A DNA stretch of 64,000 nucleotides from the NCBI RefSeq assembly GCF_029581195.1, contig NZ_CP120737.1, positions 1,116,001 through 1,180,000 on the forward strand, written 5' to 3'. This stretch comes from Solwaraspora sp. WMMD791 (lineage in GTDB: Bacteria > Actinomycetota > Actinomycetes > Mycobacteriales > Micromonosporaceae). The first letter of the stretch is position 1, and every line of letters starts with the position of its first letter. Under the pieces are notes generated by a model. That model was given only the letters and a program-made list of their open reading frames with translations, made no database searches and was not told where the DNA came from. Position numbers and translations under genes: made by a program. This document shows, piece after piece, positions 7,747 through 26,726 of this stretch.

Positions 7747-8191
7747 CCCGACGCGGCCCGCGACCCTGATCACGACGGTGGGCCGCGACCAGCAGCTCCC
7801 GCACCACCGACGCGGTCCGCGGACCGGGGTCGACCACCGCCAGCCAGCCGACGCCCCCGTAGACAGGATGGACGAACACCGTGTCGGCGGCAGCAGGATC
7901 GACCCCGGCCGAGTCGTGCCCGGCATGGCGCCGCGCCTCGTCACGGCCCACGGCGATGTTGAGTCGGAACACCCCGGGCCGGTCCAGCCGCGACGACGCG
8001 TCACCGGGATAGTCCTTGGTCACGATCGTGGCGAACGGCTGACGCCGGGCCGGGACCGTACCGTCGGGCGAGACGTAGAAGAACGTGTCACCCCAGCTGA
8101 TCGGTGGTGTGCCGCCGCCGGCGGCCGGCCGCAGCACCAGTACGTCGTCGCCGAGGCCGGCGACGAAGGCGATGATCTCTTCCTGCGTCAT
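7712..8191 (-). CDS. DUF6194 family protein
   Basis: 159 residues. It shows the pattern of this uncharacterised actinobacterial family: WGDTFFYVSPDG, RQPFATIVTKDYPGDA, LDRPGVFRLNIAVGRDE and HPVYGGVGWLAVVDPG. The C-terminal ~20 residues are low complexity and overlap the 3' end of the esterase-like gene, so the true end of the conserved domain is near residue 140. It starts 26 bp from the divergent second MerR gene, so the two may share control. Biochemical role unknown. Confidence 0.75.
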   Translation of the reverse strand: MTQEEIIAFVAGLGDDVLVLRPAAGGGTPPISWGDTFFYVSPDGTVPARRQPFATIVTKDYPGDASSRLDRPGVFRLNIAVGRDEARRHAGHDSAGVDPAAADTVFVHPVYGGVGWLAVVDPGPRTASVVRELLVAAHRRDQGRGPRRVTTGPAAGGPG

Positions 8192-8217
8192 CGCTCCAGC
8201 GTTACATTGCAGTGCTT

Positions 8218-9021
8218 ATGGAGACTTCACGCCATCGACCACAGGTGAACGGGGCGGCAGGTCTCCACTCGCCGGTGCTGCGCACGGTCGACGTCGCCCG
8301 CCGGGCCGGGTACGGCGTCCAACAGATCCGCAACCTGGAACGCGACGGCGTCCTGCCGTCGGCGCGGCGCACCGCCGCCGGCCATCGGGTCTACGGACCA
8401 CTGCACCTGTACTGCGTGCTGGCCTACCGGGCCCTGGCCGCCGCGGCGGGTCCGGCCGACGCCCGCCGGATCGTCACTGCCGCACACCAGGGCCCACCCG
8501 CCGCGATGCTCGCGCTGCTCGACGCCGTACACGCCCGGCTGGACACCGAACGCGCCGACCTGCGCCAGGCCCAACTGGCCGCCGAGGCCATCGCCGCCGA
8601 ACCGATGACCGACGTCCGCCCGTGCGACGCGATGGGCATCTCCGAACTCGCCGCCGCCCTCGGCGTACGCCCGTCGACCCTGCGGCACTGGCACGCCGAA
8701 GGTCTCGTCGTGCCCGACCGCGACCGGCCGGGCACCACCCGGCGGTACACCCCGGAGCAGGTCCGCGACGCGCGGATCGTGCACCAGTTGCGGTCCGCCG
8801 GCTACCGGATCGCGCCACTGCGGGCACTGATGCCGCAGCTACGGACCGCCCGCCGGTCGGCCGACGTCCGTACCGCGCTCGCGGCCCGCGACGCCACGAT
8901 CACCGCCCGGTCCCGGGCCCTGCTCGACGCGGCCGCCGCGCTCGGTACGGTGTTGACCCTCACCGCCGACGTGCCCGCACCAGGACCCGACGTGAGTGGG
9001 CGACGAACACCCCGTCGGTGA
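8218..9021 (+). CDS. Double MerR-type regulator (TioE-like), second copy
   Basis: 267 residues. It has the same architecture as the regulator at 5781-6482: a first MerR motif (LRTVDVARRAGYGVQQIRNL, HRVYGPLHLYCVLAYRAL), a helical linker, then a second (MGISELAAALGVRPSTLRHW, RRYTPEQVRDARIVHQLR). Its N-terminus is ~20 residues longer. I chose ATG 8218; GTG at 8212 is also possible. TACATT at 8204-8209 may serve as a -10 box with almost no leader. It is divergent from DUF6194. The 3' end overlaps the convergent methyltransferase by 62 bp, which is long, so the last ~20 residues may not be conserved. Confidence 0.78.
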   Translation: METSRHRPQVNGAAGLHSPVLRTVDVARRAGYGVQQIRNLERDGVLPSARRTAAGHRVYGPLHLYCVLAYRALAAAAGPADARRIVTAAHQGPPAAMLALLDAVHARLDTERADLRQAQLAAEAIAAEPMTDVRPCDAMGISELAAALGVRPSTLRHWHAEGLVVPDRDRPGTTRRYTPEQVRDARIVHQLRSAGYRIAPLRALMPQLRTARRSADVRTALAARDATITARSRALLDAAAALGTVLTLTADVPAPGPDVSGRRTPRR

Positions 9022-9709
9022 CGATCCGCTGGTGCACCGCCGCCAGTTCGGGACGGAACCTGTCGACGGTGAACCCCGACACCGTCCAGACGACCTTACG
9101 CAGGAACACGATCACCGCCGCGACATCGAAGAACTCCATCCGCAGCGACTCCGTCCGCAGGTCTACCACGTCCAGCCCGGCCGCCGTCGCGGCGGCGCGG
9201 ATCCGGTCCGGGTGCTGATCGGTACGCGGCGGCGTCGACACGCCCAGCGCCGCCCGCAGCTCCCCGACCGAGTCCGGACCGATCTGCTGCGACAGGTAGT
9301 CGCCGCCGCGTTCCAGTACCCGGGCCACCTCGGGCCAGCGCACCACCGTCGGATGCCGGCTCGCGACCAGGTCGAAGACGCCGTCACGAAACGGCAGGTC
9401 GGCGTCCTCGGCGGCGTGCACGACGGTCACCCCCAGCGCGGTGAGCCGGTCGCGTGCCACCTCGACGTTCGGCGGCCAGCCTTCCGTGGCCACCAGTACG
9501 GGCGGCGGTGTCGCCATCGTGGCCAGCACCTCACCGCCACCGGTCTGCAGGTCCACCGCCCGCCGCGCGGTGGCCATCCGTGCGCTCAACAGAGCGGAGT
9601 ACCCCCAGGAGGGACGCTGCTCGGTCGCCCGGCCGGCGAACCACGAGAAGTCCCAGCCGGCCACCGGTACCGCCGCCGCCTCGGCGACGTACTCGTCGAA
9701 GGTCGACAC
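8960..9709 (-). CDS. Class I SAM-dependent methyltransferase
   Basis: 249 residues from GTG 9709, preceded by GGAAGAA. The SAM-binding motif I is AVDLQTGGGEVLA (around residue 52), followed by an acidic strand end in VLVATEGWPPNVEVARDRL and by DLPFRDGVFDLVASRHP, the usual substrate-side motif. The C-terminus RMEFFDVAAVIVFLRKVVWT is typical of small-molecule methyltransferases. Substrate unknown. It ends inside the convergent MerR gene. Confidence 0.8.
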   Translation of the reverse strand: MSTFDEYVAEAAAVPVAGWDFSWFAGRATEQRPSWGYSALLSARMATARRAVDLQTGGGEVLATMATPPPVLVATEGWPPNVEVARDRLTALGVTVVHAAEDADLPFRDGVFDLVASRHPTVVRWPEVARVLERGGDYLSQQIGPDSVGELRAALGVSTPPRTDQHPDRIRAAATAAGLDVVDLRTESLRMEFFDVAAVIVFLRKVVWTVSGFTVDRFRPELAAVHQRIVTDGVFVAHSRRVLVRARRR

Positions 9710-9741
9710 CGGCTGATTCTTCCGTCGGGCCGGTCGGGGCC

Positions 9742-10251
9742 TCAACCGGATAACGGCGGCGTCGTGGCCGACGGGCCGGAGCGGGACGTCGCACCCTGTG
9801 CGACGAGATGCGTTTCCAGATACGCCCGCACCTTGTCCAGCAGGGCAGGGTTCTCCTCGACCGCCCGTGTCACCAGATTGCAGCGGTGGCAGAGCAACTG
9901 CCGGACGACTCCGCTGCGGTGGTCGTGGTCGACCGCCAGACGCCGTGGTGCACCGCCACGGCCGCGCGCGGTCTCGGACTGACCGCAGATCGCGCACCGC
10001 CCTGCCTGATCGGCCAGCATCTGCTCGTACTGCGCCGAGGTGAGGTTGTACTTCTCGCGCAGGACCTGCGCGTGCGAGACGCGGTCGCCGTCCTTGGTCG
10101 CGTAGCGGGCACGTTTGTCCGCCAGGATGCAGGCCTTGCATGGTCTGCGGGGCAGCGACGAGTGCAGCTGGTCGTAGAAGGCGGTGCGTGGCTTCGTCTG
10201 GCCACATTTTCGGCAGAACACCATGTCGTCACCCACTACTGCACCATACAT
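9742..10251 (-). CDS. HNH/recombination endonuclease VII-like nuclease
   Basis: 169 residues. An N-terminal zinc knuckle (CRKCG and CKAC) is followed by an endonuclease VII/HNH core with CAICGQSE, LAVDHDHRSGVVRQLLCHRCN and a paired-cysteine zinc site. Such proteins cut branched or invading DNA; many are phage-derived or free-standing homing-type nucleases. The start is uncertain: ATG 10251, or ATG 10224 directly before FCRKCG. Upstream is a strikingly AT-rich stretch and then a truncated methyltransferase, suggesting recent insertion. It is probably not part of a larger operon. Confidence 0.8.
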   Translation of the reverse strand: MYGAVVGDDMVFCRKCGQTKPRTAFYDQLHSSLPRRPCKACILADKRARYATKDGDRVSHAQVLREKYNLTSAQYEQMLADQAGRCAICGQSETARGRGGAPRRLAVDHDHRSGVVRQLLCHRCNLVTRAVEENPALLDKVRAYLETHLVAQGATSRSGPSATTPPLSG

Positions 10252-10370
10252 GCTGTGTGTTGTTGCCGCATAACTGTCATTATGGTGTTCCGTGTCCTCA
10301 GGTCCCGGCGGACACCCTAATTACTGAATTACCAACAACAACAATCCAATAATTGGGTCACGTGGTGGCC
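10252..10370. other. AT-rich junction between endonuclease and truncated gene
   Basis: This stretch is far richer in A/T than the surrounding ~70% GC sequence, with clusters such as CTAATTACTGAATTACC and CCAATAATTGG. It may carry the endonuclease promoter (CATAAT-like boxes on the reverse strand) and probably marks an old insertion or deletion breakpoint. Confidence 0.5.
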
Positions 10371-13279: not shown

Positions 13280-14095
13280 TCACGGCCAGCGCGCCGACGA
13301 CGCGGCGTCGCGGTCGCGGCGGCCCGCGCCGGTCACCGCGTCACGGCGGGCCCGCAGCCCCCACACCGTGACCCGCCACAGCGCCTCCCGCACGATCGCG
13401 GCGCTCATCTTGCTGGCACCCTGCTCCCGCTCGGCGAAGGTGATCGGCACCTCGACGATGCGGAACCCCTCCCGGTACGCCCGCCAGGTCAGCTCCACCT
13501 GGAACGAGTAGCCCTGCGACGACACACTTCCGTAGTCGATCTTGTCGAGGACCGGCAGCCGGTACACCCGGTACCCGCCGGTGGCGTCACGCACCGGCAT
13601 CCCCAACGCCAACCGGGTGTACAGGTTGCCGCACTGCGACACCAGCCACCGGTGCCGGGGCCAGTTCAGCACCTCACCGCCGGGCACCCACCGCGACCCG
13701 ATGACCACGTCGGCGCTGCGGGCCGCGTCCAGCAGCTGCGGCAACTGCTCCGGCGCGTGCGAACCGTCGGCGTCCATCTCCACGACAGCGTCGTAGCCGC
13801 GTTCCTTCGCCCAGCTGAAGCCGGCCACGTACGCCGCGCCCAGTCCCTGCTTACCGGGGCGGTGCAGCACGAACACCTGCCCGTCGGCGCCGGCCAGCTC
13901 GTCGGCCACCGCCCCGGTGCCGTCCGGCGAGTTGTCGTCGGCGATCAGGACGTCGACCTGCGGCACGGCGGCGCGGACCCGCCCGACGATGAGCCGTACG
14001 TTGTCCGCCTCGTTGTACGTGGGAACGACCACCAGCACCCGGCCGACACCCGGGTAGCCCTCCGGGCCATCGCCCGCCGACACCGCCTCGCTCAC
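13280..14095 (-). CDS. ppm1: Polyprenol-phosphate-mannose synthase (GT2)
   Basis: 271 residues. It transfers mannose from GDP-mannose to polyprenol phosphate on the cytoplasmic membrane face, supplying the lipid donor for protein O-mannosylation and lipoglycans. GT2 motifs are VVVPTYNEADN, LIADDNSPDGTG and EMDADGSHAPEQLP (DxD). QGYSFQVELTWRAY and ITFAEREQGASKM are typical of dolichol-phosphate-mannose synthases. There is no C-terminal membrane anchor. GTG 14095 overlaps the lnt stop by 4 bp, so the two are translationally coupled. In mycobacteria the same two functions are fused or adjacent. Confidence 0.93.
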   Translation of the reverse strand: MSEAVSAGDGPEGYPGVGRVLVVVPTYNEADNVRLIVGRVRAAVPQVDVLIADDNSPDGTGAVADELAGADGQVFVLHRPGKQGLGAAYVAGFSWAKERGYDAVVEMDADGSHAPEQLPQLLDAARSADVVIGSRWVPGGEVLNWPRHRWLVSQCGNLYTRLALGMPVRDATGGYRVYRLPVLDKIDYGSVSSQGYSFQVELTWRAYREGFRIVEVPITFAEREQGASKMSAAIVREALWRVTVWGLRARRDAVTGAGRRDRDAASSARWP

Positions 14096-15732
14096 CGTGC
14101 CTCCGCATCCACGCCGCCCGAGCGCCGGCGCAGCCACGCCGCCGCGACCACGACCGCACCGGCGGCCACCACCAGCACCATCTCGGGCCAGAAACCTGTC
14201 CGAGTCGCAAGAGTACGCGTCGAGCCCAGCTCCAACTCACTCACCACGACGGCGGCGGTGTTGAACTCGGTCGGCTGCGACACCCGCCCATTGTCATCGA
14301 CAAAAGCCGATACGCCAACGGTCGAGGCCATCAGCCCCGCCCGCCCGTGCTCCACCGCCCGCAGCCGCACCATCGCCAACTGCTGGCCGGCCTCCGCCGC
14401 GTTGAACGTCGCGTTGTTCGTCTGCACCGCCAACACCTGCGCCCCACCGGTCACCGTGTCACGGACCAACCCGTCGTAGGCCACCTCGAAACAGATGATG
14501 CCGCTGACCGCCACCGGACCCACCCGCAGCACACCCGGCTGCGAACCGGCCACGAAATCCGCTCGGACCAGATCCACCTGGTCAGTGACCATCCGCGCCA
14601 GCCGCCGAAACGGTACGTACTCGGCGAACGGCACCGGATGCCGCTTCACGTACACCTGCTCGACGTCGCCACCGGAACCCGGCTCCCACACCAGACTCAC
14701 GTTGCGCACCTCACCGGCACCGGGCCCGTACGCCAACGCACCCACCAGAATCGGCACCCCGACGGCCGCCGCCGCCTCGTCGATACTCGCCGCCGCCTGC
14801 GCGTCCCGCGTCGGATCCACGTCACTGGCGTTCTCCGGCCAGACCACCAGATCCGGCGCCGGCACCTGCCCCGCCCGCACCTGCCGCGCCAACCGGACCG
14901 TGCCCTGCACATGGTTGTCCAGCACCGCCCGCCGCTGCGCGTTGAAATCCAACCCCATCCGCGGCACGTTGCCCTGCACGATCGCCACCGTCACCGACCC
15001 CGCCGTACCACCACCCAGCGGCACCGCCGCCCCCACCAGCAGCACCCCCGCCGCGACCAGCACCCCACCGGCAGCCACCAGCGCCGACCGGCCGACCCGC
15101 CACCGCCGCCACACCGCCGCCGCCACCACCCCACCGGCCACCGCCACCACGAACGTCACCAGCGGCGCGCCACCGACAGCCGCCCACGCCAACGCCGGCG
15201 AATCACCCTGGCTGAACGCCAACCGGCCCCACGGAAAACCACCGAACGGGGTCCGACCCCGCAACGCCTCCTGCCCCACCCACAGCACACCCGTCACCAC
15301 CGGCCACACCACCAGCCGCCGCCGGTCCACCACCGGCGACACGAACGCCGCCACCGCCCCCAGCACCGCCAGGTAACTGGCCTGCAACCCCGACAGCAGC
15401 ACCCACGGCAAACTGCCCGTGTGCAGATTCGTCCAACTCAGCAACGGCGCGAAGAACACCACACCCGCCAGGAAACCGACACCCGCGCCCGCCCACCATC
15501 GCCGACGGTGCACCGCCACCGCCAGCGCCGCCACCCCCACCGGCGCCGCCCACCACAGGTCATACGGCGGAAACGCCACCAGCAGCGCCACCCCGGCGAC
15601 CACCGCCAACCCCACCGCCACCGGGGCCGACACCGCCCGACCCGGCACCGCCGACACCGGCGGACCCGACCGCACCGGCACCGCCACCGCATCCACCATC
15701 GCCACGTCGAGCCCCACTGCGCCGCGGGCCAC
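14092..15732 (-). CDS. lnt: Apolipoprotein N-acyltransferase
   Basis: Up to 546 residues. It N-acylates the lipid-modified cysteine of lipoproteins. The N-terminal half has about six to seven membrane segments. The C-terminal half is a nitrilase-fold domain with the catalytic triad visible as Glu in VVWPENASD, Lys in VYVKRHPVPF and Cys in GIICFEVAYD, followed by a last membrane helix. The start is uncertain: GTG 15732 is used here, ATG 15699 is an alternative, and neither has a strong ribosome site. It forms a two-gene operon with ppm1, linking membrane glycolipid and lipoprotein maturation. Confidence 0.92.
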   Translation of the reverse strand: MARGAVGLDVAMVDAVAVPVRSGPPVSAVPGRAVSAPVAVGLAVVAGVALLVAFPPYDLWWAAPVGVAALAVAVHRRRWWAGAGVGFLAGVVFFAPLLSWTNLHTGSLPWVLLSGLQASYLAVLGAVAAFVSPVVDRRRLVVWPVVTGVLWVGQEALRGRTPFGGFPWGRLAFSQGDSPALAWAAVGGAPLVTFVVAVAGGVVAAAVWRRWRVGRSALVAAGGVLVAAGVLLVGAAVPLGGGTAGSVTVAIVQGNVPRMGLDFNAQRRAVLDNHVQGTVRLARQVRAGQVPAPDLVVWPENASDVDPTRDAQAAASIDEAAAAVGVPILVGALAYGPGAGEVRNVSLVWEPGSGGDVEQVYVKRHPVPFAEYVPFRRLARMVTDQVDLVRADFVAGSQPGVLRVGPVAVSGIICFEVAYDGLVRDTVTGGAQVLAVQTNNATFNAAEAGQQLAMVRLRAVEHGRAGLMASTVGVSAFVDDNGRVSQPTEFNTAAVVVSELELGSTRTLATRTGFWPEMVLVVAAGAVVVAAAWLRRRSGGVDAEAR

Positions 15733-16227: not shown

Positions 16228-17643
16228 CTACCGCGTGTCGACCGGCGTGTCCCCACCGACACCCCGCCGACCACCAGACGCAACCCCCGACGCGGCCAGC
16301 ACGTAACGCTCCACCAGACCCGCCGCCGCCTGCGGAAACTCCCCCACCAGCAGACCCGCCGCCGCCAACACGTACGACGCGTCGACCACCGGCACCGCCG
16401 CCCGCGGCACCAACCAGCCACCACCCCGGTCGTCGGCCAGCCGCCGCAACACCCCGACCGCGTCAGCCGCCGACGCGTGCCGCAACACCCCACCCGAACC
16501 CACCAGCCACCGCACCCGCCGCAGATCCCGCCCACCGCCCGGCTCCTGCCCGCCCCCACGCGCGTGCCGACGCACCGCCACCACCGCCGCCAACTCCACC
16601 AGCCGCAGATCCACCGCCCGACCCGCGTCGTCGACCGGCACCAGACCCGGACACGCCACCCGCCGCGCCGCCGCCGCCGTCAACGCCACCGCCTCGGCGT
16701 CACCGACCAGACGCTCCGCCACCGCCGCAGCGACCACCCCCGCCGCACCCACCCGCACCCCCAGGTCGCCCTCCACCGTGCGAGCCTGACCCCACCAGCC
16801 GGCCACCTCCGGCGTGGACACCGGTTCGGCACCCGCCGGCTCACCGTCCGGCGCCACCACCGAATACACGTCCGTCGTCGCCCCGCCCACGTCGACCACC
16901 AGCACATCGGCCCCCACCCGGTCAGCGAGGACCCCCACCCCCGACACCACCGCGTCCGGCGTCGCCGCCCGCACGCTCGACGCGAACCGGCCGTCACGCG
17001 ACAACCCCGAGCCGCCGATCACATGTCGCAGAAAGACCTCCCGCACCGCAGCCCGCGCCGACGCCGGTGCCAACACCCCCAACCGGGGCAGCACGTTGTC
17101 CGCCACCGTCACCGCCAACCCCGCAGCCCGCAACGCGGCGCCCGCCACCGCCCGCCCCTGCACGTTGCCCGCCACCACCACCGGCGTCGACATTCCCGCC
17201 GACGCCAACCTCGCCGCGTTGTGCAGCAGCACCTCCACGTCACCGCCGTCGGTCCCCCCGACCAGCAGCACCACGTCCGGTGCCGCCGCCCGCAGCCGTG
17301 CCACCTCCGGCGCGTCCAACCGGCCCGCCGCCACGTGCACCACCCGCGCCCCCGCCGACAACCCCACCCGGACCCCGGCCCGCGCCGTCACCAACGGCTC
17401 ATACCCCACCACCGCCAGCCGCAGCCCACCACCCGCCGACGAACACACCAGCCACGGCGCACCCCGTACCCCGCCCGGCACCCCCGCCCCCGCCGCCGTC
17501 ACCGCCGCCGCCAGACCCTCCCACACGTCCGAGCCCACCGTCGTCGGATGCGCCGCCGACGCCAGCAGCGCCCCGTCGGCCACATCCACCACCACGACCT
17601 TCGTCACCGTCGACCCGACATCGGCACACACCGCCACGCTCAC
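16228..17643 (-). CDS. MutL/GlmL-like reactivating chaperone of a B12 mutase
   Basis: 471 residues from GTG 17643. It has an actin/Hsp70 (ASKHA) fold with phosphate-1 motif ADVGSTVTKVVVVD at residues 7-20 and phosphate-2 motif VVDVGGATTDVYSV. The family, annotated glutamate mutase L, accompanies B12-dependent aminomutases and is thought to exchange damaged cobalamin using ATP. Here it ends an operon encoding lysine 5,6-aminomutase, so that enzyme is its likely client. The start overlaps the kal stop by 4 bp. It is unrelated to the mismatch-repair protein of the same name. Confidence 0.88.
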   Translation of the reverse strand: MSVAVCADVGSTVTKVVVVDVADGALLASAAHPTTVGSDVWEGLAAAVTAAGAGVPGGVRGAPWLVCSSAGGGLRLAVVGYEPLVTARAGVRVGLSAGARVVHVAAGRLDAPEVARLRAAAPDVVLLVGGTDGGDVEVLLHNAARLASAGMSTPVVVAGNVQGRAVAGAALRAAGLAVTVADNVLPRLGVLAPASARAAVREVFLRHVIGGSGLSRDGRFASSVRAATPDAVVSGVGVLADRVGADVLVVDVGGATTDVYSVVAPDGEPAGAEPVSTPEVAGWWGQARTVEGDLGVRVGAAGVVAAAVAERLVGDAEAVALTAAAARRVACPGLVPVDDAGRAVDLRLVELAAVVAVRRHARGGGQEPGGGRDLRRVRWLVGSGGVLRHASAADAVGVLRRLADDRGGGWLVPRAAVPVVDASYVLAAAGLLVGEFPQAAAGLVERYVLAASGVASGGRRGVGGDTPVDTR

Positions 17644-18038
17644 TCGGCACCACCCGCCGCCGGCACCACCACCGTCCCCGTCGCCGTCACCGCCACCAAC
17701 GGCGGCACCACCACCCGCGCCGCCGACACCGACAGTTCCGGCCGCCCCCGACACACCACCGCGCACTCGAACCGCACCGACCGGCTGCGCACCCCCACCC
17801 GTACCACCGTCCCGGTCGCCTCCACCACGTCCCCGGCCCGCACCGGAGCCACGAACCGCACCTCGTCGTAGCCCGCGAACAACCCTTCGTCGCCGTCACC
17901 CCGGATACACAACTCCGTCGCCACGTCACCGAACAGACCCAGCACGTACGCGCCGTCGACCAGACCACCCGCGTAGTGCGCGTGCCCGTACGGCACGTAC
18001 CGCCGATGCGTCACCGACAACCCGACCACCGCGCTCAC
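17640..18038 (-). CDS. kal: 3-aminobutyryl-CoA ammonia-lyase
   Basis: 132 residues, hot-dog fold size. It eliminates ammonia from L-3-aminobutyryl-CoA to give crotonyl-CoA, the last specific step of lysine fermentation. The family-like segments are YVPYGHAHYAGGLVDGAYVLGLFGDVATEL and the substrate-tunnel strand DEGLFAGYDEVRFVAPVRAGD, cut here to show the start region only: YVPYGHAHYAGG near residue 14. Assignment to Kal rather than a generic thioesterase-fold protein rests strongly on its place directly after kamDE. It overlaps kamE and the MutL-like gene by 4 bp each. Confidence 0.85.
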   Translation of the reverse strand: MSAVVGLSVTHRRYVPYGHAHYAGGLVDGAYVLGLFGDVATELCIRGDGDEGLFAGYDEVRFVAPVRAGDVVEATGTVVRVGVRSRSVRFECAVVCRGRPELSVSAARVVVPPLVAVTATGTVVVPAAGGAE

Positions 18039-18781
18039 GCCGCCACCCGGGCCCGGGCCACCACCGCGTGCACCAGGTAACTCGCCACCTCACGCGGTGT
18101 CGCACCCCGACCGAAGATCCGGTCCACCCCCAACTCGCGCGCCATCAACTCGTCGAACCGGGGACCACCGACCACCAGCAACGGCCGCCGCGCCGCCGGC
18201 ACCGCCTCCCGCACCGCCGCCGACAGCTCCCGCACATTGTGCAAATGCGCATCACGTTGTGTCACCACCTGGGAGACCAGGATCGCGTCCGCGTCCACCC
18301 GCACCGCCTCCTCCACCAGCTCCGCCACCGGCACCTGCGCCCCCATGTTGACCACCGCGAACTCCCGGTAGTACTCCAAACCCTTCTCCCCTGCGATTCC
18401 CTTGACGTTGAGAATCGCGTCGATGCCGACCGTGTGCGCGTCCGTACCGATACACGCCCCCACCACCGACAACCGGCGCCCCAGCCCGGCCCGCACCGCC
18501 GCATTGACCTCCTTGGCCGCCAACAACGGAAAGTCCCGCTCCACCACCCGCACCGCCGACAGATCCACCAGATGACGCACCCGCCCGTACACCACGAAGA
18601 ACGTGAAACCCTCCCCGACCGGCGCAGCGTGCACCACCATCACCGCCTCGAGCCCCATCTTCTGCGCCAACTGCGCCGCCGCGCCCTCCGCCCGCTTACC
18701 CGCCGGCACCGGCAACGTGAACGACACCTGCACCATCCCGTCACCGGTCGTGTCCCCGTACGGACGCACCACCTCAGCCAC
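18035..18781 (-). CDS. kamE: Lysine 5,6-aminomutase beta subunit
   Basis: 248 residues from GTG 18781, with nearby upstream GTG codons also possible. It carries adenosylcobalamin and PLP for moving the terminal amino group of lysine or beta-lysine. The B12-binding motif DAHTVG (114-119) supplies the cobalt-ligating His116. Lys127 in NVKG is 11 residues further on, matching the His133/Lys144 spacing of the characterised clostridial enzyme, where the Lys binds PLP. The Rossmann-like SVVGACIGTD and VVGGPRFDELM elements complete the domain. It partners with KamD, encoded 4 bp upstream. Confidence 0.94.
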   Translation of the reverse strand: MAEVVRPYGDTTGDGMVQVSFTLPVPAGKRAEGAAAQLAQKMGLEAVMVVHAAPVGEGFTFFVVYGRVRHLVDLSAVRVVERDFPLLAAKEVNAAVRAGLGRRLSVVGACIGTDAHTVGIDAILNVKGIAGEKGLEYYREFAVVNMGAQVPVAELVEEAVRVDADAILVSQVVTQRDAHLHNVRELSAAVREAVPAARRPLLVVGGPRFDELMARELGVDRIFGRGATPREVASYLVHAVVARARVAA

Positions 18782-20366
18782 CGTCACCACCACCCACCGG
18801 CTCCGCCAACAACTCCGACACCGGATTGACGTACCCGTCGGCCTGCGCCACGACCCCGTCACGGCCCTTACCGCCGTCCACCGGCCGACGCATCACACCG
18901 AACGTTCCGTCGGCGATCGCCGACAACAACGACCCGTCGACGATCCGCTCCAACAACTCCACCGCCTCGCCCAGCACCTGCCCGGCCCGCCGTTGAATGA
19001 ACCCACCCGGCGCCGGAACGAAATCCTCCGCCAGACCCCCGGCCGCACCCAGCACGTACCGCACGTTCTGCAACGCGATGTCCCGGTCACTGAGCCACGG
19101 CGTCGCCACCGCCTCCGTCATCATGCCGACCAGCAGAATCCCCTGCCCCGTCAACACCCCCGCCAAATTGAAGAACCCGTTCAGCAGATTCCCCCGGAAC
19201 ACGTCACCGGTCATGTGCCGAGTCGGCGGCATCCACTTCAACGGCGCCTCCGGAAACAACTCCCGCGCCAACAACGCATGCGCCAGCTCCAACCGGAACG
19301 ACTCCGGCACCGACGGATCGATCTCGAACGCGTGCCCCAGCCCCAACTGCCAGTCCGCCAGCCCCGCCTCCCGGGCGAAGAACTCGTTCAGCAGCTGCGA
19401 CACCGTCACCGTGTGCGCCGCCTCCACCGCGTCCGCCGTCGTCAGATAATTGTCCTCACCAGTGTTGATGATGATGCCCGCCCGCGCGTGCACCTGCCGA
19501 GAAAACCGCTGATCGACGAACGTCCGCACCGGATTGATGTCCCGGAACAAAATCCCGTACATCGAATCGTTCAACATCATGTCCAGCCGTTCCAGACCAG
19601 CCAACGCCGCCATCTCCGGCATACACAGACCCGACGCGTAATTCGTCAACCGCACATATCGACCCACCTCGGCTGACACCTCGTCCAACGCCGCCCGCAT
19701 CAACCGGAAGTTCTCCTGCGTCGCGTACGTCCCCGCGAACCCCTCCCGCGTCGCCCCCTCCGGCACGTAGTCCAACAACGACTGCCCCGTCGAGCGGATC
19801 ACCGCGATCACATCCGCACCGGCCCGTGCCGCCGCCTGCGCCTGCGGCACATCCTCATGGATGTCCCCCGTCGCCACGATCAGATACACCCACGGCCGCC
19901 GCGGCGGATCACCCCACCGCGCCACCAGCCGCTCCCGCTCCCGCCGCGCCCTGTCCACCCGCCCCACCCCGACCGCCGCCGCCGCCCGCGCCCACCGCCG
20001 CGCCGCCTGCGCCGCCGCACCCACCGGCACCTCGAACCGCACCCCACCCGACGCCGCCTCCTGCGCCAACCGGGTCAACGCCGCCCCGTCCACCCGTGAC
20101 GCCCCACCCCGCAGCACCGCGTCACACACCGGCACCGCCACCCCCAACCCCAACCCCACCTGATCCGCCACCGCGTCCACCAAGCGGTTCACCCACGGAA
20201 TCCCCTCCGCGTCCGCCCCGGCCACCCCCATCAACCGCAGCACCGCCCGCTCCACCGACACCGTCGTACGGCTACGGGCCAACTCCACCACCGGCGCACC
20301 CGCCCGCGCCGCCAGCTCCCGCGCCCGCGCCACCACCACCGGGTCCAGGCCCAACACCCCGCTCAC
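18774..20366 (-). CDS. kamD: Lysine 5,6-aminomutase alpha subunit
   Basis: 530 residues, normal for the large TIM-barrel subunit. With KamE it converts beta-lysine (or D-lysine) to the diaminohexanoate. The conserved core includes ATGDIHEDVPQAQAAA, IRSTGQSLLDYVP, ATQENFRLMRAAL, LTNYASGLCMPEMA, INTGEDNYLTTADAVEAAH and PPTRHMTGDVFRG. GTG 20366 overlaps the stop of the upstream amidohydrolase by 4 bp, so translation is coupled through the operon. Third positions are almost all G/C, like neighbours, so recent transfer is not obvious. Confidence 0.95.
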   Translation of the reverse strand: MSGVLGLDPVVVARARELAARAGAPVVELARSRTTVSVERAVLRLMGVAGADAEGIPWVNRLVDAVADQVGLGLGVAVPVCDAVLRGGASRVDGAALTRLAQEAASGGVRFEVPVGAAAQAARRWARAAAAVGVGRVDRARRERERLVARWGDPPRRPWVYLIVATGDIHEDVPQAQAAARAGADVIAVIRSTGQSLLDYVPEGATREGFAGTYATQENFRLMRAALDEVSAEVGRYVRLTNYASGLCMPEMAALAGLERLDMMLNDSMYGILFRDINPVRTFVDQRFSRQVHARAGIIINTGEDNYLTTADAVEAAHTVTVSQLLNEFFAREAGLADWQLGLGHAFEIDPSVPESFRLELAHALLARELFPEAPLKWMPPTRHMTGDVFRGNLLNGFFNLAGVLTGQGILLVGMMTEAVATPWLSDRDIALQNVRYVLGAAGGLAEDFVPAPGGFIQRRAGQVLGEAVELLERIVDGSLLSAIADGTFGVMRRPVDGGKGRDGVVAQADGYVNPVSELLAEPVGGGDGG

Positions 20367-22006
20367 CCCGCACCCACCGCGACCTGCCCCGCCGCCACGA
20401 AGATCTCCCGCCCCCGCGACACCGTCCGCAGACACCGCGGCAACGGCGTCGGATCCGCCGGACCCCACACCGCCGGATCATCCGCCAACACCACCGGCAA
20501 TCCCTGTGGCGACACCCCCGCCGGAGCCGACCACACCGCGAACGTCGCCGCCGCACCCAACGCCAACACCCCCTCCCGGGACGCGTCCACCACCCCCGGC
20601 GGCAACGCCCGCCACCCGCCCCGGGTATGCGCCGCGAACGCCGACCGCACCGCCAACCGCGACGCCGGATTGAAATGCGCCGCCGCCGCCCGCACCGCAC
20701 CCCACGGATCCAGCGGCGTCACCGGCGAATCCGACCCGAACGCCAACGGCACCCCCACCCCGTGCAGCACCGCGAACGGATTCGACGCCAACGCCCGCTC
20801 CGCACCCAACCGGGCCGCGTACATCTGACTGTCACCACCCCACAACCGATCGAACGCCGGCTGCACGCTCGCCACCACCCCGAACTCCACGAACGCCGCC
20901 ACCACCCGCCGATCCAGCAGCTCCACATGCTCCACCCGGTGCCGACCCGCCCGCAGCCGATCCACCCCGACCTGACGCGCCGCCGCCGCGAATCCGTCCG
21001 CCACCGCCGACAACGCCGCGTCACCGATCGCGTGGAACCCGCCCTGCACTCCCCACCGGACACACTCCACCAGATGCGCCGCCACCTGATCCGCGGTCAG
21101 AAAACACCGACCACAGCCATCCCGGTCGACGTACGGCCGCGACACGTACGCCGTACCCGAACCGAACGCGCCATCAACGAACAGATCACCCCCGGCACCC
21201 ACCGCACCCAGCTCCCGCGCCCGCTGCAGCCCCATCAACTCGCCCCAGTAGCCGTACACCTCCGGCAGCCCGTCCCCCGACATCGCCAACACACCGGCGA
21301 AATCCGCCTCCGACGAGATGACCGGACCACCGCACTCGTGCACCGCCGCGATCCCCGCCCGCGCCGCCGACTCCAACGCCGCCCGCTGCGCGCCCGCCCG
21401 CTGCACCGCACCCAACGCACCGAACGCCGCCGCCCGCACCGCATGATGCGCATCCGCCCGCACCCAACCCGGCACCCCGCCAACCGCCGGCACGTCCGCC
21501 TCGGTCGTCGGCGCCGACGGCACCGCCGCCAGCAGCGCCTGCGACACCAACGCCGAATGCATCGACGCCTGCGACAGGTACACCCGACGGCCGCCGGCCG
21601 CCCTCGACAACTGCCCCGCGTCCGGCGGCACGGCCCGCCCCCACGTCGACTCGTCCCAGCCGTGCCCCAGCACCACCGCGTCACCCGGCAGCCCCGCCGC
21701 GAACCCCGCCACCCGGTCCAGCAGCTCCTGCGGCGACCGCACCGCCGACAGATCCAGCCCGGACGACACCAGACCGGTGTCCGTCGCGTGCACGTGGGCA
21801 TCCACGAACGCCGGCGTCACCACCGCCCGGTCCAGGTCCACCACCACGTCGGCCCGGGGCGCGTCCGCGTCCACCCCCAACCAGGCGATCCGGCCGTCGC
21901 GCACCAGCAACGCCGTCGCCCCCGGCTGCGCCGGACAGTACAACCGGCCACCCCGGTACAGCACCGCCGGCAGATCGGCACCGGACACCATCGCAGGATT
22001 CGTCAT
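20363..22006 (-). CDS. Metal-dependent amidohydrolase (YtcJ-like) in the lysine operon
   Basis: 547 residues. It is an amidohydrolase-superfamily enzyme of the YtcJ/formamidase-like group. FVDAHVHATD supplies the HxH metal ligands, FHAIGDAAL and RHRVEHVELLD hold the later His ligands, and AFGSDSPVTPLDPW holds the catalytic Asp. Such enzymes hydrolyse amide or lactam C-N bonds. It is locked between kdd and kamD (5-bp gap, 4-bp overlap), yet no step in the known lysine pathway needs it. Possible roles are opening a lactam formed from a diamino or keto-amino intermediate, or deacylating a lysine derivative; both are inferences. Confidence 0.85.
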   Translation of the reverse strand: MTNPAMVSGADLPAVLYRGGRLYCPAQPGATALLVRDGRIAWLGVDADAPRADVVVDLDRAVVTPAFVDAHVHATDTGLVSSGLDLSAVRSPQELLDRVAGFAAGLPGDAVVLGHGWDESTWGRAVPPDAGQLSRAAGGRRVYLSQASMHSALVSQALLAAVPSAPTTEADVPAVGGVPGWVRADAHHAVRAAAFGALGAVQRAGAQRAALESAARAGIAAVHECGGPVISSEADFAGVLAMSGDGLPEVYGYWGELMGLQRARELGAVGAGGDLFVDGAFGSGTAYVSRPYVDRDGCGRCFLTADQVAAHLVECVRWGVQGGFHAIGDAALSAVADGFAAAARQVGVDRLRAGRHRVEHVELLDRRVVAAFVEFGVVASVQPAFDRLWGGDSQMYAARLGAERALASNPFAVLHGVGVPLAFGSDSPVTPLDPWGAVRAAAAHFNPASRLAVRSAFAAHTRGGWRALPPGVVDASREGVLALGAAATFAVWSAPAGVSPQGLPVVLADDPAVWGPADPTPLPRCLRTVSRGREIFVAAGQVAVGAG

Positions 22007-22011
22007 GGCGA

Positions 22012-23061
22012 TCAGTCTGCCGTCAGCCGGGCCTCGAACAACGCCCGAACCCCCGGCTCGGCACGCAGCAGCCCCACCGCGAACTCCGCATGACCCGGCA
22101 CGAACCCGTTGCCGACCAGCATCGTCACATCCGCCGCCAGCCCCTCGGCGCCCAACGCCGCCGCCGCGAAGCTCGTCGCCATCGAGAAGAACACCACCGT
22201 TCCACCATCCGCGGTCGACAACACCGCCCCGTGCTCACAGCCGGGCACGTCGACACAGACCACCGTCACATCGGCCCCGCCACCCAGGACCTCGCGCACG
22301 GCGGCCGACACCGCCACCGGATCCCGCGCGTCCGCCACCACCACCGCCGACGCCAGACCAGTCGCCGCCAACCGGTCATGCTCCGCCCGGGTCGGCACCA
22401 CCCCGACCGTACGGGCGGCTCCCGCCCGCCGCGCCGCCGCCACCGCGAGACAGCCACTCTTGCCCGCCGCGCCCAGTACCGCGACCGACAACCCCGCACG
22501 CGGATCCGCCGGCACCTGCCGGCGCACCACCCGGTCGGTCAACGCCGGCGCGCCGCACACGTCGAACACCGCCAGCGCCAGCCGGTCCGGCAGATCAGCC
22601 GGCAGCGGTGCCACCACGGTACGGCCGAACAGGATCGCGTGCCCCGTACACGGCACCTGCTCGCCGGTACCGTCCCAACCCGCCAGCCCGTCGGTGACCA
22701 CCAACGGCGTCAACGTCAACGAGACCAGGCTGGCCACCCGCTGCCCCACCCGCACACCGGCGGTCGACCGGGAACCGACGGCGTCGACGGTGCCGATCAG
22801 CATCCCACCGGAGCCGGTCACCGGGTTGTGCATCTTCCCCCGCCGCGCAATGATCCCCGCGACCTCGGCTCGCACCGCCGCACCGTCACCGCCGTGCGCC
22901 TCGCGCAGCTGGCGGAAGCTGGCCGCGTCGAGGTTGAGCCGCTCCACCCGGATCCGGATCTCGTCGTCGGCGATCCGGGGGTCGGTGTCCAACCGCCAGG
23001 CCGCCTGCGGCAATGCCCCGACCGGCTCGCGCACCCGATGCAGACCGACCGGCGACAGCAC
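22012..23061 (-). CDS. kdd: L-erythro-3,5-diaminohexanoate dehydrogenase
   Basis: 349 residues from GTG 23061, directly after AAGGAGGG; the longer open frame upstream lacks such a site and crosses the divergent promoter. Kdd oxidatively deaminates 3,5-diaminohexanoate to 3-keto-5-aminohexanoate with NAD(P)+. The protein has an alcohol-dehydrogenase-like layout: an N-terminal GroES-like part (GSGGMLIGTVDAVG) and a Rossmann part SVAVLGAAGKSGCLAVAAAR, with LGAEGLAADVTMLVGNG near the C-terminus. First gene of the minus-strand operon. Confidence 0.88.
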   Translation of the reverse strand: MLSPVGLHRVREPVGALPQAAWRLDTDPRIADDEIRIRVERLNLDAASFRQLREAHGGDGAAVRAEVAGIIARRGKMHNPVTGSGGMLIGTVDAVGSRSTAGVRVGQRVASLVSLTLTPLVVTDGLAGWDGTGEQVPCTGHAILFGRTVVAPLPADLPDRLALAVFDVCGAPALTDRVVRRQVPADPRAGLSVAVLGAAGKSGCLAVAAARRAGAARTVGVVPTRAEHDRLAATGLASAVVVADARDPVAVSAAVREVLGGGADVTVVCVDVPGCEHGAVLSTADGGTVVFFSMATSFAAAALGAEGLAADVTMLVGNGFVPGHAEFAVGLLRAEPGVRALFEARLTAD

Positions 23062-23113
23062 CGCACCCTCCTTCGCAGCAAACCCGCCTGCAGTCAAGAA
23101 CCTCAACCTGGGC

Positions 23114-23143
23114 CTGACAAGACGGGAAGTCTTCCGGCAGAAT
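23114..23143 (+). promoter_or_regulatory. Candidate kamA promoter
   Basis: CTGACA (23114-23119) and CAGAAT (23138-23143) are separated by 18 bp, giving a leader of about 50 nt before ATG 23200. The 138-bp intergenic region must also hold the divergent kdd promoter. Confidence 0.45.
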
Positions 23144-23199
23144 AGTGGGACAGCGAAAAGATATCCAGATGCCCTCGAGGTCGGCCCGCAGGAGCACAC

Positions 23200-24591
23200 A
23201 TGCCGCAACCCATCTCGGCCACGACCACCTCGGCCACCTCGGCCACCCCGCACCAGCCGTACGCCTACCGCCGACGCCCCCTCGTCGAACCCGACTGGAC
23301 CCGGCTGCCCGGATGGCGACACGTCACGACCGACGAATGGCACTCCGCCCAGTGGCAGCGGGCCCACTGCGTCAAGACCGCCGCCCAGCTACGCGCCGTC
23401 CTCGGCGACCTGGCCGACGACAGCTTCTACGCCGATCTCGCCGCCGACCAGACCGGCAACGCCACGATGTCGATGCTCATCACCCCACAAATGATCAACA
23501 CGATGGTGCCCGACCGCGCCCCCGACACCGACTCGCTGCGCGCCGACCCCGTCCGCCGCTACATGCTCCCGCTGGCCAGCGACCGCCGCACCGACTGGCC
23601 GTCCCACCCGTACGCCAGCCGCGACTCGCTGCACGAACACGACATGTGGGTCGCCGAAGGCCTCACCCACCGCTATCCCACCAAGGTCCTCGCCGAACTC
23701 CTCGCCACCTGCCCGCAGTACTGCGGGCACTGCACCCGGATGGACCTCGTCGGCAACTCCACCCCCACCGTCGACAAACTCCGCCTCACCCTGCGACCCG
23801 CCGCCCGGTACGAGGCCCAGCTCGACTACCTGCGTACCCACCCGCAGGTGCGCGACGTCGTCGTGTCCGGTGGCGACGTGGCGAACCTGCCCTGGCGACA
23901 CCTGGAGAGCTACCTGCAGGGCCTGCTCGAGATCGACACCGTCCGCGACATCCGGCTGGCCACCAAGGCGCTGATGGGACTACCACAGCACTGGCTGCAG
24001 CCCGACGTCGTGGCCGGCCTGGAACGGATCGCCCGGACCGCGGCCAGCCGCAGCGTCAACCTGGCCATCCACACCCACGTCAACCACGCCCAGTCGCTCA
24101 CTCCGCTGGTCGCCCGCGCCGCGCAGACCGCACTCGACGTGGGCATCCGCGACGTCCGCAACCAGGGTGTGCTGATGCGCGGCGTCAACGCCGACCCCGA
24201 CGCCCTGCTCGACCTCTGCTTCGCGCTGCAGGGCGAAGCAGGCATCCTGCCCTACTACTTCTACCTGTGTGACATGATCCCCAACGCCGAACACTGGCGG
24301 GTCCCGGTCGCCGTCGCCCAGCAACTGCAGCACGACATCATGGGCTACCTGCCCGGCTACGCCACCCCGCGGATCGTCTGCGACGTCCCCCTCGTCGGCA
24401 AACGGTGGGTGCACATGCCCACCGAGTACGACCGGGAACACGGCATCTCCTACTGGACGAAGAACTACCGCACGTCGCTCGACGGCGACACCGACGACGC
24501 CCTGGACCGCCGCTACCCGTACTACGACCCGATCGACACGCTGTCAGAGTCCGGGCAGCGATGGTGGCGTCGGCACCGGCTCCCGGCCTGA
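23200..24591 (+). CDS. kamA: Lysine 2,3-aminomutase family radical SAM enzyme
   Basis: 463 residues, preceded by AGGAG. The [4Fe-4S]/SAM motif is Cys171, Cys175 and Cys178 in CPQYCGHC. Asp358 in YLCDMIPN and Asp395 in RIVCD match the two aspartates that hold the lysine side chain in the clostridial enzyme. The PLP lysine is probably Lys401 in PLVGKRW, but the usual glycine-rich PGGGGK is absent and the Lys is one residue closer to Asp395. It should convert L-lysine to beta-lysine, feeding KamDE encoded divergently. A hairpin follows. Confidence 0.9.
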   Translation: MPQPISATTTSATSATPHQPYAYRRRPLVEPDWTRLPGWRHVTTDEWHSAQWQRAHCVKTAAQLRAVLGDLADDSFYADLAADQTGNATMSMLITPQMINTMVPDRAPDTDSLRADPVRRYMLPLASDRRTDWPSHPYASRDSLHEHDMWVAEGLTHRYPTKVLAELLATCPQYCGHCTRMDLVGNSTPTVDKLRLTLRPAARYEAQLDYLRTHPQVRDVVVSGGDVANLPWRHLESYLQGLLEIDTVRDIRLATKALMGLPQHWLQPDVVAGLERIARTAASRSVNLAIHTHVNHAQSLTPLVARAAQTALDVGIRDVRNQGVLMRGVNADPDALLDLCFALQGEAGILPYYFYLCDMIPNAEHWRVPVAVAQQLQHDIMGYLPGYATPRIVCDVPLVGKRWVHMPTEYDREHGISYWTKNYRTSLDGDTDDALDRRYPYYDPIDTLSESGQRWWRRHRLPA

Positions 24592-25064: not shown

Positions 25065-25508
25065 TCAGCTCAGCCGGGGCGGACGGGCCTCGTACGGCGT
25101 CGACAGCACCACGGTCGTCCGGGTCGTCACGTTGGCCGCGGTCCGAATCTCCTGCAGCAACCGTTCCAGGTCCGCCGGGCTACCCACCCGTACCAGCAGC
25201 AGATAGAAATCCTCCCCCGCCACCGAGTAGCACGAGTCGATCTCGGGCAGGTGCGACAACCGCTCCGGGGCGTCGTCGGGCTGCGACGGATCGAGCGGCC
25301 GGATCGCCACGAACGCACTCAGCGGCAGACCCACCGCCTCGTAGGACACCCGCGCCGCGTACCCCTTGACGACGCCCCGCTGCTCCAGGCGCCGGACCCG
25401 CTGATGGACGGCCGACACCGACAGACCCACCCGCTCGGCCAGGTCGGTGTACGACACCCGGCCGTCAGTGGTCAACGCGGTGACGATGGCGCGATCGGTC
25501 TCCTCCAC
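25065..25508 (-). CDS. Lrp/AsnC-family transcriptional regulator
   Basis: 147 residues. The N-terminal winged helix (LTTDGRVSYTDLAERVGLSV, SAVHQRVRRLEQRGVVKGY) is followed by an alpha-beta RAM domain (AFVAIRPL, CYSVAGEDFYLLLVRVG) that binds amino acids and oligomerises. GTG 25508 is predicted leaderless: TAGGTT lies 7 nt upstream. Its position 0.5 kb from kamA makes lysine-responsive control of the lysine genes a reasonable guess, but no operator was identified. Confidence 0.9.
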   Translation of the reverse strand: MEETDRAIVTALTTDGRVSYTDLAERVGLSVSAVHQRVRRLEQRGVVKGYAARVSYEAVGLPLSAFVAIRPLDPSQPDDAPERLSHLPEIDSCYSVAGEDFYLLLVRVGSPADLERLLQEIRTAANVTTRTTVVLSTPYEARPPRLS

Positions 25509-25583: not shown

Positions 25584-26726
25584 TCAGTCCCGGGCGAGGG
25601 CGCGGGAGATCACCACCCGTTGGATCTGGTTCGTGCCCTCCACGATCTGCAGCACCTTCGCCTCCCGTAGGTAGCGCTCCACCGGGTGGTCGCTGACGTA
25701 GCCGTACCCGCCGAGAACCTGGACCGCGTCGACCGTGACCCGCATCGCGACATCCGTCGCGAACAGCTTCGCCTTTGCCGACTCGACCGCGTACGGTCGG
25801 CCGGCGTCGCGCAACCGGGCGGCGGCCAGGGTCATCGCCCGCGCCGCCGACACCTGGGTCGCCATGTCGGCGAGCAGGAACCCGAGACCCTGCAGATCGA
25901 TGATGCGGCGACCGAACTGCTCCCGCTCACGGGCGTAGCCGACCGCGTGATCCAGCGCCGCCTGGGCCAGGCCCACCGCACAGGCCGCGATTCCCAACCG
26001 GCCGCCCGCCAGCGCCGACATCGCCACCGTGAAGCCCTGGCCGGGCTCGCCCACCACCTGGTCGGTCGACACCCGGACGTCATCGAAGACCAGCTGCGCC
26101 ACCGGCGACGAACGCAGACCCATGGTCCGCTCCGCCGGCTGCGCGGCCATCCCCGGCGTACCGGCGGGAACCAGCAGGCAGGAGATCCCGCCCGCTCCCG
26201 GACCACCGGTCCGGCAGAACACGTTGTAGAAGTCGGCCACCGCGGCGTGGGTGATCCACGCCTTCGTCCCGGACACCACGTAGTCGGCACCGTCGCGGAC
26301 CGCCCGGGTGGTCAACGCCGCCGCGTCCGAGCCGCCCTGCGGTTCACTGAGGCAGTACGCACCGAGCAGGTCCCCGCCGAGCATCTCGGGCAACGCCTTG
26401 CGCTGGCGTTCGCTGCCGAACTCGGCGACCGGGCCGCAGGACAGGGTGTGCACGCTCACCGCCTCGGCGACGGCCAGCCACCGGCTCGCCAGCACCTCCA
26501 GCACCTGCAGGTAGACCTCGTACGGCTGGCCACCGCCACCGTCGGCCTCGGCGAACGGCAGCCCCAGCAGACCGGCGCGGCCCAGGGTCCGAATCACCTC
26601 GCGGGGGAACTCGCCGCGCGACTCGAAGTCGTCGACCCGGCCGGCCAGCTCCCGGTCGGCGATCTCGGTGGTCAACTCGATCAGGTCGTACGCCTCCGGA
26701 GAGGGCAGAATCCGTTCGACGGTCAT
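25584..26726 (-). CDS. Acyl-CoA dehydrogenase
   Basis: 380 residues, standard length for the FAD-dependent family. Signatures are AYCLSEPQGGSDAAAL, KAWITHAAVADFY and the C-terminal QVLGGYGYVSDHPVERYLREAK, LQIVEGTNQIQR. The catalytic Glu is carried in the YVSDHPVERYLREAK/IVEGTNQIQ region typical of short-chain enzymes. It follows AGGAG. Short-chain specificity would connect it to crotonyl/butyryl-CoA produced by the nearby lysine pathway, but it could equally serve branched-chain or fatty acid oxidation. Confidence 0.9.
   Translation of the reverse strand: MTVERILPSPEAYDLIELTTEIADRELAGRVDDFESRGEFPREVIRTLGRAGLLGLPFAEADGGGGQPYEVYLQVLEVLASRWLAVAEAVSVHTLSCGPVAEFGSERQRKALPEMLGGDLLGAYCLSEPQGGSDAAALTTRAVRDGADYVVSGTKAWITHAAVADFYNVFCRTGGPGAGGISCLLVPAGTPGMAAQPAERTMGLRSSPVAQLVFDDVRVSTDQVVGEPGQGFTVAMSALAGGRLGIAACAVGLAQAALDHAVGYAREREQFGRRIIDLQGLGFLLADMATQVSAARAMTLAAARLRDAGRPYAVESAKAKLFATDVAMRVTVDAVQVLGGYGYVSDHPVERYLREAKVLQIVEGTNQIQRVVISRALARD

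Follow-up and report, generated by a model that had tools for sequence, protein, structure and literature searches.

A lysine aminomutase gene cluster and an unlinked kce-like gene in Solwaraspora sp. WMMD791 point to a classical lysine degradation route in Micromonosporaceae

The genome of Solwaraspora sp. WMMD791 (Micromonosporaceae; one contig of 6.93 Mb) carries a compact group of lysine aminomutase genes, kamA, kdd, kamD, kamE and kal, at positions 16228 to 24591 of the window, i.e. of the whole 64,000-nucleotide stretch analysed (1116001-1180000 of the genome). Together with one unlinked gene of the BKACE (DUF849) family, the candidate for the 3-keto-5-aminohexanoate cleavage enzyme Kce, this cluster would encode the classical route of lysine degradation, a reading to which we give a probability of about 85%. 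Very probably this route is complete and a trait of the family Micromonosporaceae. A preliminary description of the same DNA had reported the cluster for an actinomycete, without kce. As a property of the organism the lack of kce is not supported, since a genome-wide BKACE search, which that description itself proposed, revealed a Kce-like gene 4.3 Mb away. Nor is the route peculiar to one strain: Kdd was found in 112 of the 121 family genomes sampled.

Lysine breakdown by radical and B12-dependent aminomutases is usually portrayed as a fermentation of anaerobes, and the Micromonosporaceae are an aerobic family. The gene distribution suggests that the lysine route is a core catabolic module of these bacteria rather than a fermentation oddity. 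Nearly all sampled genomes of this large family, whose filamentous members live in soil and sea and include drug producers, have the trait, and models of their lysine catabolism would have to be revised accordingly. Within the literature searched we found no paper linking the pathway to Micromonosporaceae; subscription papers lay outside the scope of this search, and wording such as 'lysine 2,3-aminomutase' may have escaped it.

Gene content and predicted reactions of the cluster

The genes follow each other in the order mutL-kal-kamE-kamD-amh-kdd on the minus strand, with kamA divergent on the plus strand and lnt and an Lrp gene as flanks. Protein identity was judged against NCBIfam equivalog cut-offs, Pfam families and solved structures. 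Four of the five enzymes named at the outset pass their equivalog cut-offs: Kal (17640-18038; NF052388, 185 bits, cut-off 160), the lysine 5,6-aminomutase beta subunit KamE (18035-18787, with a start at 18787 or 18781; NF052385, 347.7 bits, cut-off 280), the alpha subunit KamD (18774-20366; NF052384, 678.5 bits, cut-off 600) and the L-erythro-3,5-diaminohexanoate dehydrogenase Kdd (22012-23061; NF052381, 255-256 bits, cut-off 200), whose start is probably 23061 and not 23367. The E-values of these matches range from 1e-55 to 1e-204 and thus exclude chance matches. KamD aligned to the solved structure 8t0v with an E-value of 7e-158, and the best solved matches of KamE were the D-lysine 5,6-aminomutase beta subunits 8t0v and 9q1a. 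The ornithine aminomutase model OraE scored far lower, with 124.5 bits (KamD) and 118 bits against a cut-off of 800, which speaks against an ornithine aminomutase and bears out the earlier assignment of KamD and KamE to the lysine type. The fifth enzyme, KamA, was recognised as KamA-type below every cut-off.

The inventory given in the preliminary description was accurate for the genes that it named, all five of which lie where it had placed them, but it passed over two others on the minus strand. One encodes a MutL/GlmL-type protein, probably the reactivase of the B12 aminomutase (16228-17643; PF13941, 404.8 bits), which passes the cut-off of the GlmL family TIGR01319 (223 bits against 204) and stays below the equivalog cut-offs of GlmL (303 against 475) and Or-4. 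The other, amh, encodes an amidohydrolase of the Amidohydro_3 type (20363-22006; PF07969, 205 bits). The tight packing reported earlier is confirmed on the sequence: GTGA overlaps of 4 bp join mutL to kal (17640-17643), kal to kamE (18035-18038) and kamD to amh (20363-20366), the kamE start lies 8-14 bp within kamD, and 5 bp separate amh from kdd. The divergent intergenic region between kdd and kamA (23062-23199) is presumed from its position to hold the promoters.

From the identity, conservation, joint presence and joint loss of these genes, all read directly from the genomes, we infer the individual reactions in this organism, their use under oxygen and the fates of crotonyl-CoA and acetoacetate. 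KamA would convert L-lysine to beta-lysine, which KamDE, dependent on adenosylcobalamin and pyridoxal phosphate (PLP) and kept active by the MutL-type protein, would turn into 3,5-diaminohexanoate. Oxidation and deamination by Kdd should yield 3-keto-5-aminohexanoate, the predicted substrate of Kce. Kal would then remove ammonia and form crotonyl-CoA, which could enter general beta-oxidation, and acetoacetate may be activated by a CoA-transferase or synthetase encoded elsewhere. Consistent with the earlier statement that neither Kce nor CoA-transferase genes are in the window, the genome-wide family search placed no BKACE and no Pfam CoA-transferase match there; the four CoA-transferase matches of the genome lie at 586300-587771 and 6628100-6629589.

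The same enzymes in the same order of reactions are known from lysine fermentation in Clostridium sticklandii, according to the accessible text of PMC3149608, and KamD, KamE, Kdd and Kal of the window pass the curated models for that pathway. Unlike in C. sticklandii, the route is found here in a family taken as aerobic, with a separate KamA subfamily, an unlinked kce and a cluster built around amh at the lnt locus. Cloacamonas shares the first four steps and uses Kat instead of Kal (PMC3149608), showing that the final deamination is exchangeable. The window has Kal, and the exchange that we propose below would take place earlier, directly behind beta-lysine. In the same source kamA is described as over-abundant relative to the other genes of the lysine route, and ammonia-oxidising archaea were reported to have Kal and Kat without the key enzymes (PMC8397731, in the part available).

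KamA (23200-24591; TIGR03820, 160.8 bits against a cut-off of 525.4) had lysine 2,3-aminomutase 2a5h as its sole solved relative at E 0.001. A CPQYCGHC motif, two Asp and one Lys are conserved in all 37 aligned rows of the subfamily and in three distant rows. In the alignment of the window protein to 2a5h the CxxxCxxC motif, both Asp and the Lys are present, the Lys offset by one residue. We take the two Asp to contact the lysine side chain and the Lys to bind PLP. We assign the window protein to a separate KamA-like subfamily that probably works like lysine 2,3-aminomutase. In three f15 genomes (L290, L297, L299) kamA is close to a carbon-nitrogen hydrolase gene, which in L297 is weakly amidase-like.

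The unlinked kce gene and the record of joint presence and loss

The only BKACE gene of the genome lies at 5468364, between ygfZ and the asparaginase-like ansA (names assigned from translations). Among NCBIfam models it scores highest with Kce (289.7 bits), and its best solved match is the Kce structure 2y7d. In an alignment of 43 BKACE rows, some of which represent one gene fetched twice, 34 rows share about 64% identity or more and all carry Glu at the position of Kce Glu14, which we take, with the other residues of the Kce-type set, to act in the active site. The full set is present in the window genome's protein and in 32 of the 34 orthologous rows, the two exceptions being a single G013 gene fetched twice with one residue changed. 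The remaining nine rows, at 38% identity or less, have Val, Met or Asp instead of this Glu. Orthology was checked by identity and residues for the rows of this alignment. BKACE group G2 acts on 3-keto-5-aminohexanoate, as stated in the accessible part of PMC4922564; we liken the window genome's protein to it by residues and by the solved match, not by group.

Physical linkage is found elsewhere in the family. Judged by coordinates, nine of the 121 genomes (G013, G014 and seven from genus g12) have a BKACE gene no more than about 2.5 kb away from kdd, and in four mapped genomes (G099, G011, G013, G014) the kce orthologue stands directly behind kamA, its product 64-70% identical to that of the window genome.

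The family sample comprised 44 genera, and 42 of them contain Kdd. BKACE was detected in 116 genomes, including all 112 with Kdd. In a phylum sample of 296 genomes Kdd occurred in 22, in 17 of them over the cut-off. Among named KamA relatives we kept 80 of 581 loci, possibly without the window's own record; their genera (Micromonospora, Salinispora, Actinoplanes, Catellatospora, Dactylosporangium and others) are, we assume, Micromonosporaceae or labelled so. At 78 of these loci kdd is near kamA, and at the other two the contig begins at kamA. The Fisher tests made here ignore shared ancestry and are descriptive only; in the second one, G094 and G113 were entered as having Kce, and the remaining seven genomes without Kdd as lacking it.

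The Kdd-negative genomes are instructive. Three of the nine (G079, G093, G114) belong to the window's own genus, are 99-100% complete and are devoid of any BKACE. Here, amh has lost its neighbours on either side, mutL-kal-kamED and kdd. The genes that are kept include ppm, lnt, amh itself, kamA, Lrp, the acyl-CoA dehydrogenase gene (ACAD) and ygfZ. At the distant locus, ygfZ and ansA are direct neighbours with no kce between them, their matched stretches being 95 bp apart. Loss of a distant kce together with mutL-kal-kamED and kdd in three species of one genus argues that kce belongs to the pathway. BKACE is also absent from the less complete G059 (82%) and G063 (77%). G030, of another genus, lacks kdd, kamD and kce, has only a weak BKACE match (1e-26) and shows kamA as N-terminal pieces at two contig ends; G033 has a BKACE of 38% identity and, like G059 of the same genus g34, is also without kamA. 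A BKACE in this genome, a BKACE in every Kdd-positive genome of the family and the joint loss speak against a truly missing kce, and it is very probable that the organism is not without this gene.

Several observations weigh against a complete classical pathway. The BKACE score is below the NCBIfam Kce cut-off of 382, and KamA passes no NCBIfam cut-off and matches no Pfam family at E 0.001. In a tree of four genes G079, G093 and G114 form one clade; the losses are therefore probably one event. The drafts G094 and G113 are Kdd-negative and keep the ygfZ-linked BKACE (85% identical in G113). As kamA is present in both, and kamD lies at the edge of a contig in G094, assembly gaps are the likely reason. 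Finally, at locus L135 of another family (8090-10313) a 34% identical BKACE with Asp at the Glu14 position adjoins a low-score Kdd-like gene. This protein is possibly a second type of Kce, and Glu14 is therefore an indication and not proof.

The ygfZ-linked BKACE might act on another beta-keto acid and leave the cleavage of 3-keto-5-aminohexanoate to a non-homologous enzyme, as its score would allow and as its position near kdd in only 9 of the 112 Kdd-positive family genomes (coordinates of the best BKACE matches) might suggest. The orthologues beside kdd or behind kamA, the joint loss across 4.3 Mb and the Kce-type residue at position 14 speak for Kce and make another role very improbable. 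Still less probable is that the genes supply beta-lysine or 3,5-diaminohexanoate for a specialised metabolite instead of breaking down lysine. Such use has parallels: at L285 (843-18456), in an f4 genome, a 70% identical KamA is encoded among AMP-binding enzymes, a carrier protein, an amine oxidase and a type I polyketide synthase, possibly for a beta-lysine-derived product. Actinomycetes are known to use beta-amino acid starters that aminomutases produce (PMC9230918), and an Actinoplanes polyketide cluster is mentioned as having a lysine aminomutase (PMC3364876), both as far as the accessible text of these papers goes. However, there are no biosynthetic genes among the identified genes of the cluster, Kal and Kce fit breakdown to CoA esters, and a specialised-metabolite cluster would hardly be as widely conserved as Kdd, which 112 of the 121 family genomes possess. 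Lysine degradation by the classical route thus remains the preferred reading.

A possible second module behind the same KamA

The KamA subfamily (about 60% identity or more) reaches beyond the classical pathway. It was found in 44 of the 296 phylum-sample genomes, with weak matches in 6 more, and Kdd was present in 12 of the 44. In G079, G093 and G114, which lost the rest of the pathway, kamA has dN/dS values of 0.085-0.107 and looks to be under purifying selection, which argues against a relic. Relatives without the classical set appear to carry a different, undescribed operon for lysine breakdown, and the apparent exchange of modules behind one KamA subfamily adds to the interest of the system.

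Both arrangements are found in group f9, which belongs to another class. In five loci of this group a divergent Lrp-kamA pair is followed by kdd-amh-kamD. At others, Lrp-kamA is followed, with or without amh, by genes for an aldehyde dehydrogenase, an aminotransferase, a two-subunit CoA-transferase and a second aminotransferase (two loci complete, two truncated by the contig). The first aminotransferase was searched at E 1e-90 in 34 genomes, 22 Kdd-negative and 12 Kdd-positive. The phylum sample has 32 genomes with KamA and without Kdd, of which this search covered 18. The aminotransferase was present in 20 of the 22 Kdd-negative genomes, including G079, G093, G114 and G030, and in none of the 12 Kdd-positive ones, one of which (G190) showed no KamA. 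The two misses were the draft G350, in which the kamA contig ends inside the aldehyde dehydrogenase gene, and the f4 genome G313, with kamA in a polyketide cluster.

These figures suggested that the two modules strictly exclude each other, but the family-wide search showed that they do not. Strong matches to the aminotransferase (69% or more, the next being 50%) occurred in 9 of 121 genomes, namely the four Kdd-negative ones just listed and five Kdd-positive ones (G004, G007, G066, G097, G106; 69-74%). Four of the latter contain the whole operon and G106 a part of it; the modules are therefore alternatives able to coexist. Of 18 loci around the aminotransferase, 10 have all five genes (one with the aldehyde dehydrogenase cut) and four are cut by the end of the contig or stretch. 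The loci of G079, G093 and G114 comprise the aldehyde dehydrogenase and both aminotransferases with no CoA-transferase between the aminotransferases, and that of G162 only the first two genes. The operon lies, whole or in part, at L295 (11981-17992), L289 (11182-17061), L326-L343, L350, L351, L353 and L354.

The operon's aldehyde dehydrogenase most resembles 1-pyrroline-5-carboxylate (P5C) dehydrogenases but does not reach their cut-offs. The first aminotransferase comes closest to 7vno, deposited as a hypothetical 4-aminobutyrate aminotransferase, and its f9 version just exceeds the cut-off of an acetylornithine-type group (554.1 against 552). Nearest solved relatives are glutaconate CoA-transferase for the CoA-transferase and class III aminotransferases for the second aminotransferase. 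The first two enzymes resemble the system of ornithine delta-aminotransferase and P5C dehydrogenase. In beta-lysine the amino groups at C3 and C6 are spaced as in ornithine. Unlike the ornithine system, the operon has beta-lysine as its predicted substrate and adds a CoA-transferase and a second aminotransferase. Beta-lysine might be converted to 3-amino-6-oxohexanoate, which could cyclise like P5C, and further to 3-aminoadipate. CoA-transferase and second aminotransferase, in either order, would then yield 3-oxoadipate or its CoA ester, followed by thiolysis. Substrates other than beta-lysine are possible.

On balance we lean slightly towards the view that in Actinomycetota one KamA subfamily provides entry to beta-lysine and two interchangeable modules lie behind it, the classical B12-dependent kamDE/kdd/kce/kal set and an undescribed B12-free operon leading to 3-oxoadipyl-CoA, hence to succinyl-CoA and acetyl-CoA, and that species of the window's genus exchanged one module for the other and kept kamA. 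In the literature searched, no paper mentioned beta-lysine together with 3-oxoadipate. The operon points to a possible new lysine pathway through 3-oxoadipate, and the matched species of one genus, with the classical module either present or gone and the other operon there, and with kamA in both, make the genes testable.

The lnt locus and minor observations

The surroundings of the cluster seem to be older than the pathway. In the window, lnt for apolipoprotein N-acyltransferase (14092-15732, minus strand; PF20154 and PF00795) flanks the lysine genes on one side. On the other side, both on the minus strand and assigned by profile matches, are a regulator of the Lrp/AsnC type (25065-25508), which might regulate kamA and whose counterpart in group f9 is divergent to kamA, and the acyl-CoA dehydrogenase (25584-26726). 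Lrp and ACAD are also near amh in the pathway-less species of the same genus (L151-L153). In three loci of group f4 (probably Streptomyces; group f2 is probably Mycobacteriaceae), Lrp is near amh (L154-L156) and ACAD is so in two (L155, L156). ACAD as a pathway enzyme was rejected on these grounds, and the earlier suggestion that it takes part in the use of crotonyl-CoA is weakened accordingly. For the most part, amh, Lrp and ACAD appear to be inherited surroundings of the lnt locus.

For amh itself, a genuine role in the pathway, e.g. on a lactam or N-acyl form of beta-lysine or 3-keto-5-aminohexanoate, would explain its position between kamD and kdd, which 40 of 43 family loci share, and why, in group f9, a relative adjoins kdd at five loci and, at two that lack kdd, kamA, an arrangement that counts against a pure bystander. 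In the other three family loci, however, kce is behind kamA and amh is outside the cluster; in G011, G013 and G014, whose genera have kce behind kamA, it stands elsewhere, beside lnt. Moreover, amh is kept beside lnt in the same-genus species without the pathway, beside ppm or lnt in f4 genomes and beside lnt in five f2 genomes, Kdd being found in neither group. Two genomes from other families within the class (L126, L128) share the lnt-locus layout. A catalytic role of amh in lysine breakdown is thus unlikely, and as a defining pathway gene it was rejected for this family, though not for group f9. On the simplest interpretation, the lysine genes settled around an old lnt-amh pair.

Minor deviations were seen at single loci. 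In G106 (L103) about 4 kb separates kamA from kdd and breaks the usual divergent pair. G105 has the cluster twice, on two contigs (L115, L116) whose match percentages agree; the second copy is probably a duplicate made in assembly. At L136 (7210-9755) and L137 (7819-10271) low-score Kdd-like genes (92 and 46 bits) have lnt and a relative of amh as neighbours, and no aminomutase gene was seen in the stretch covered.

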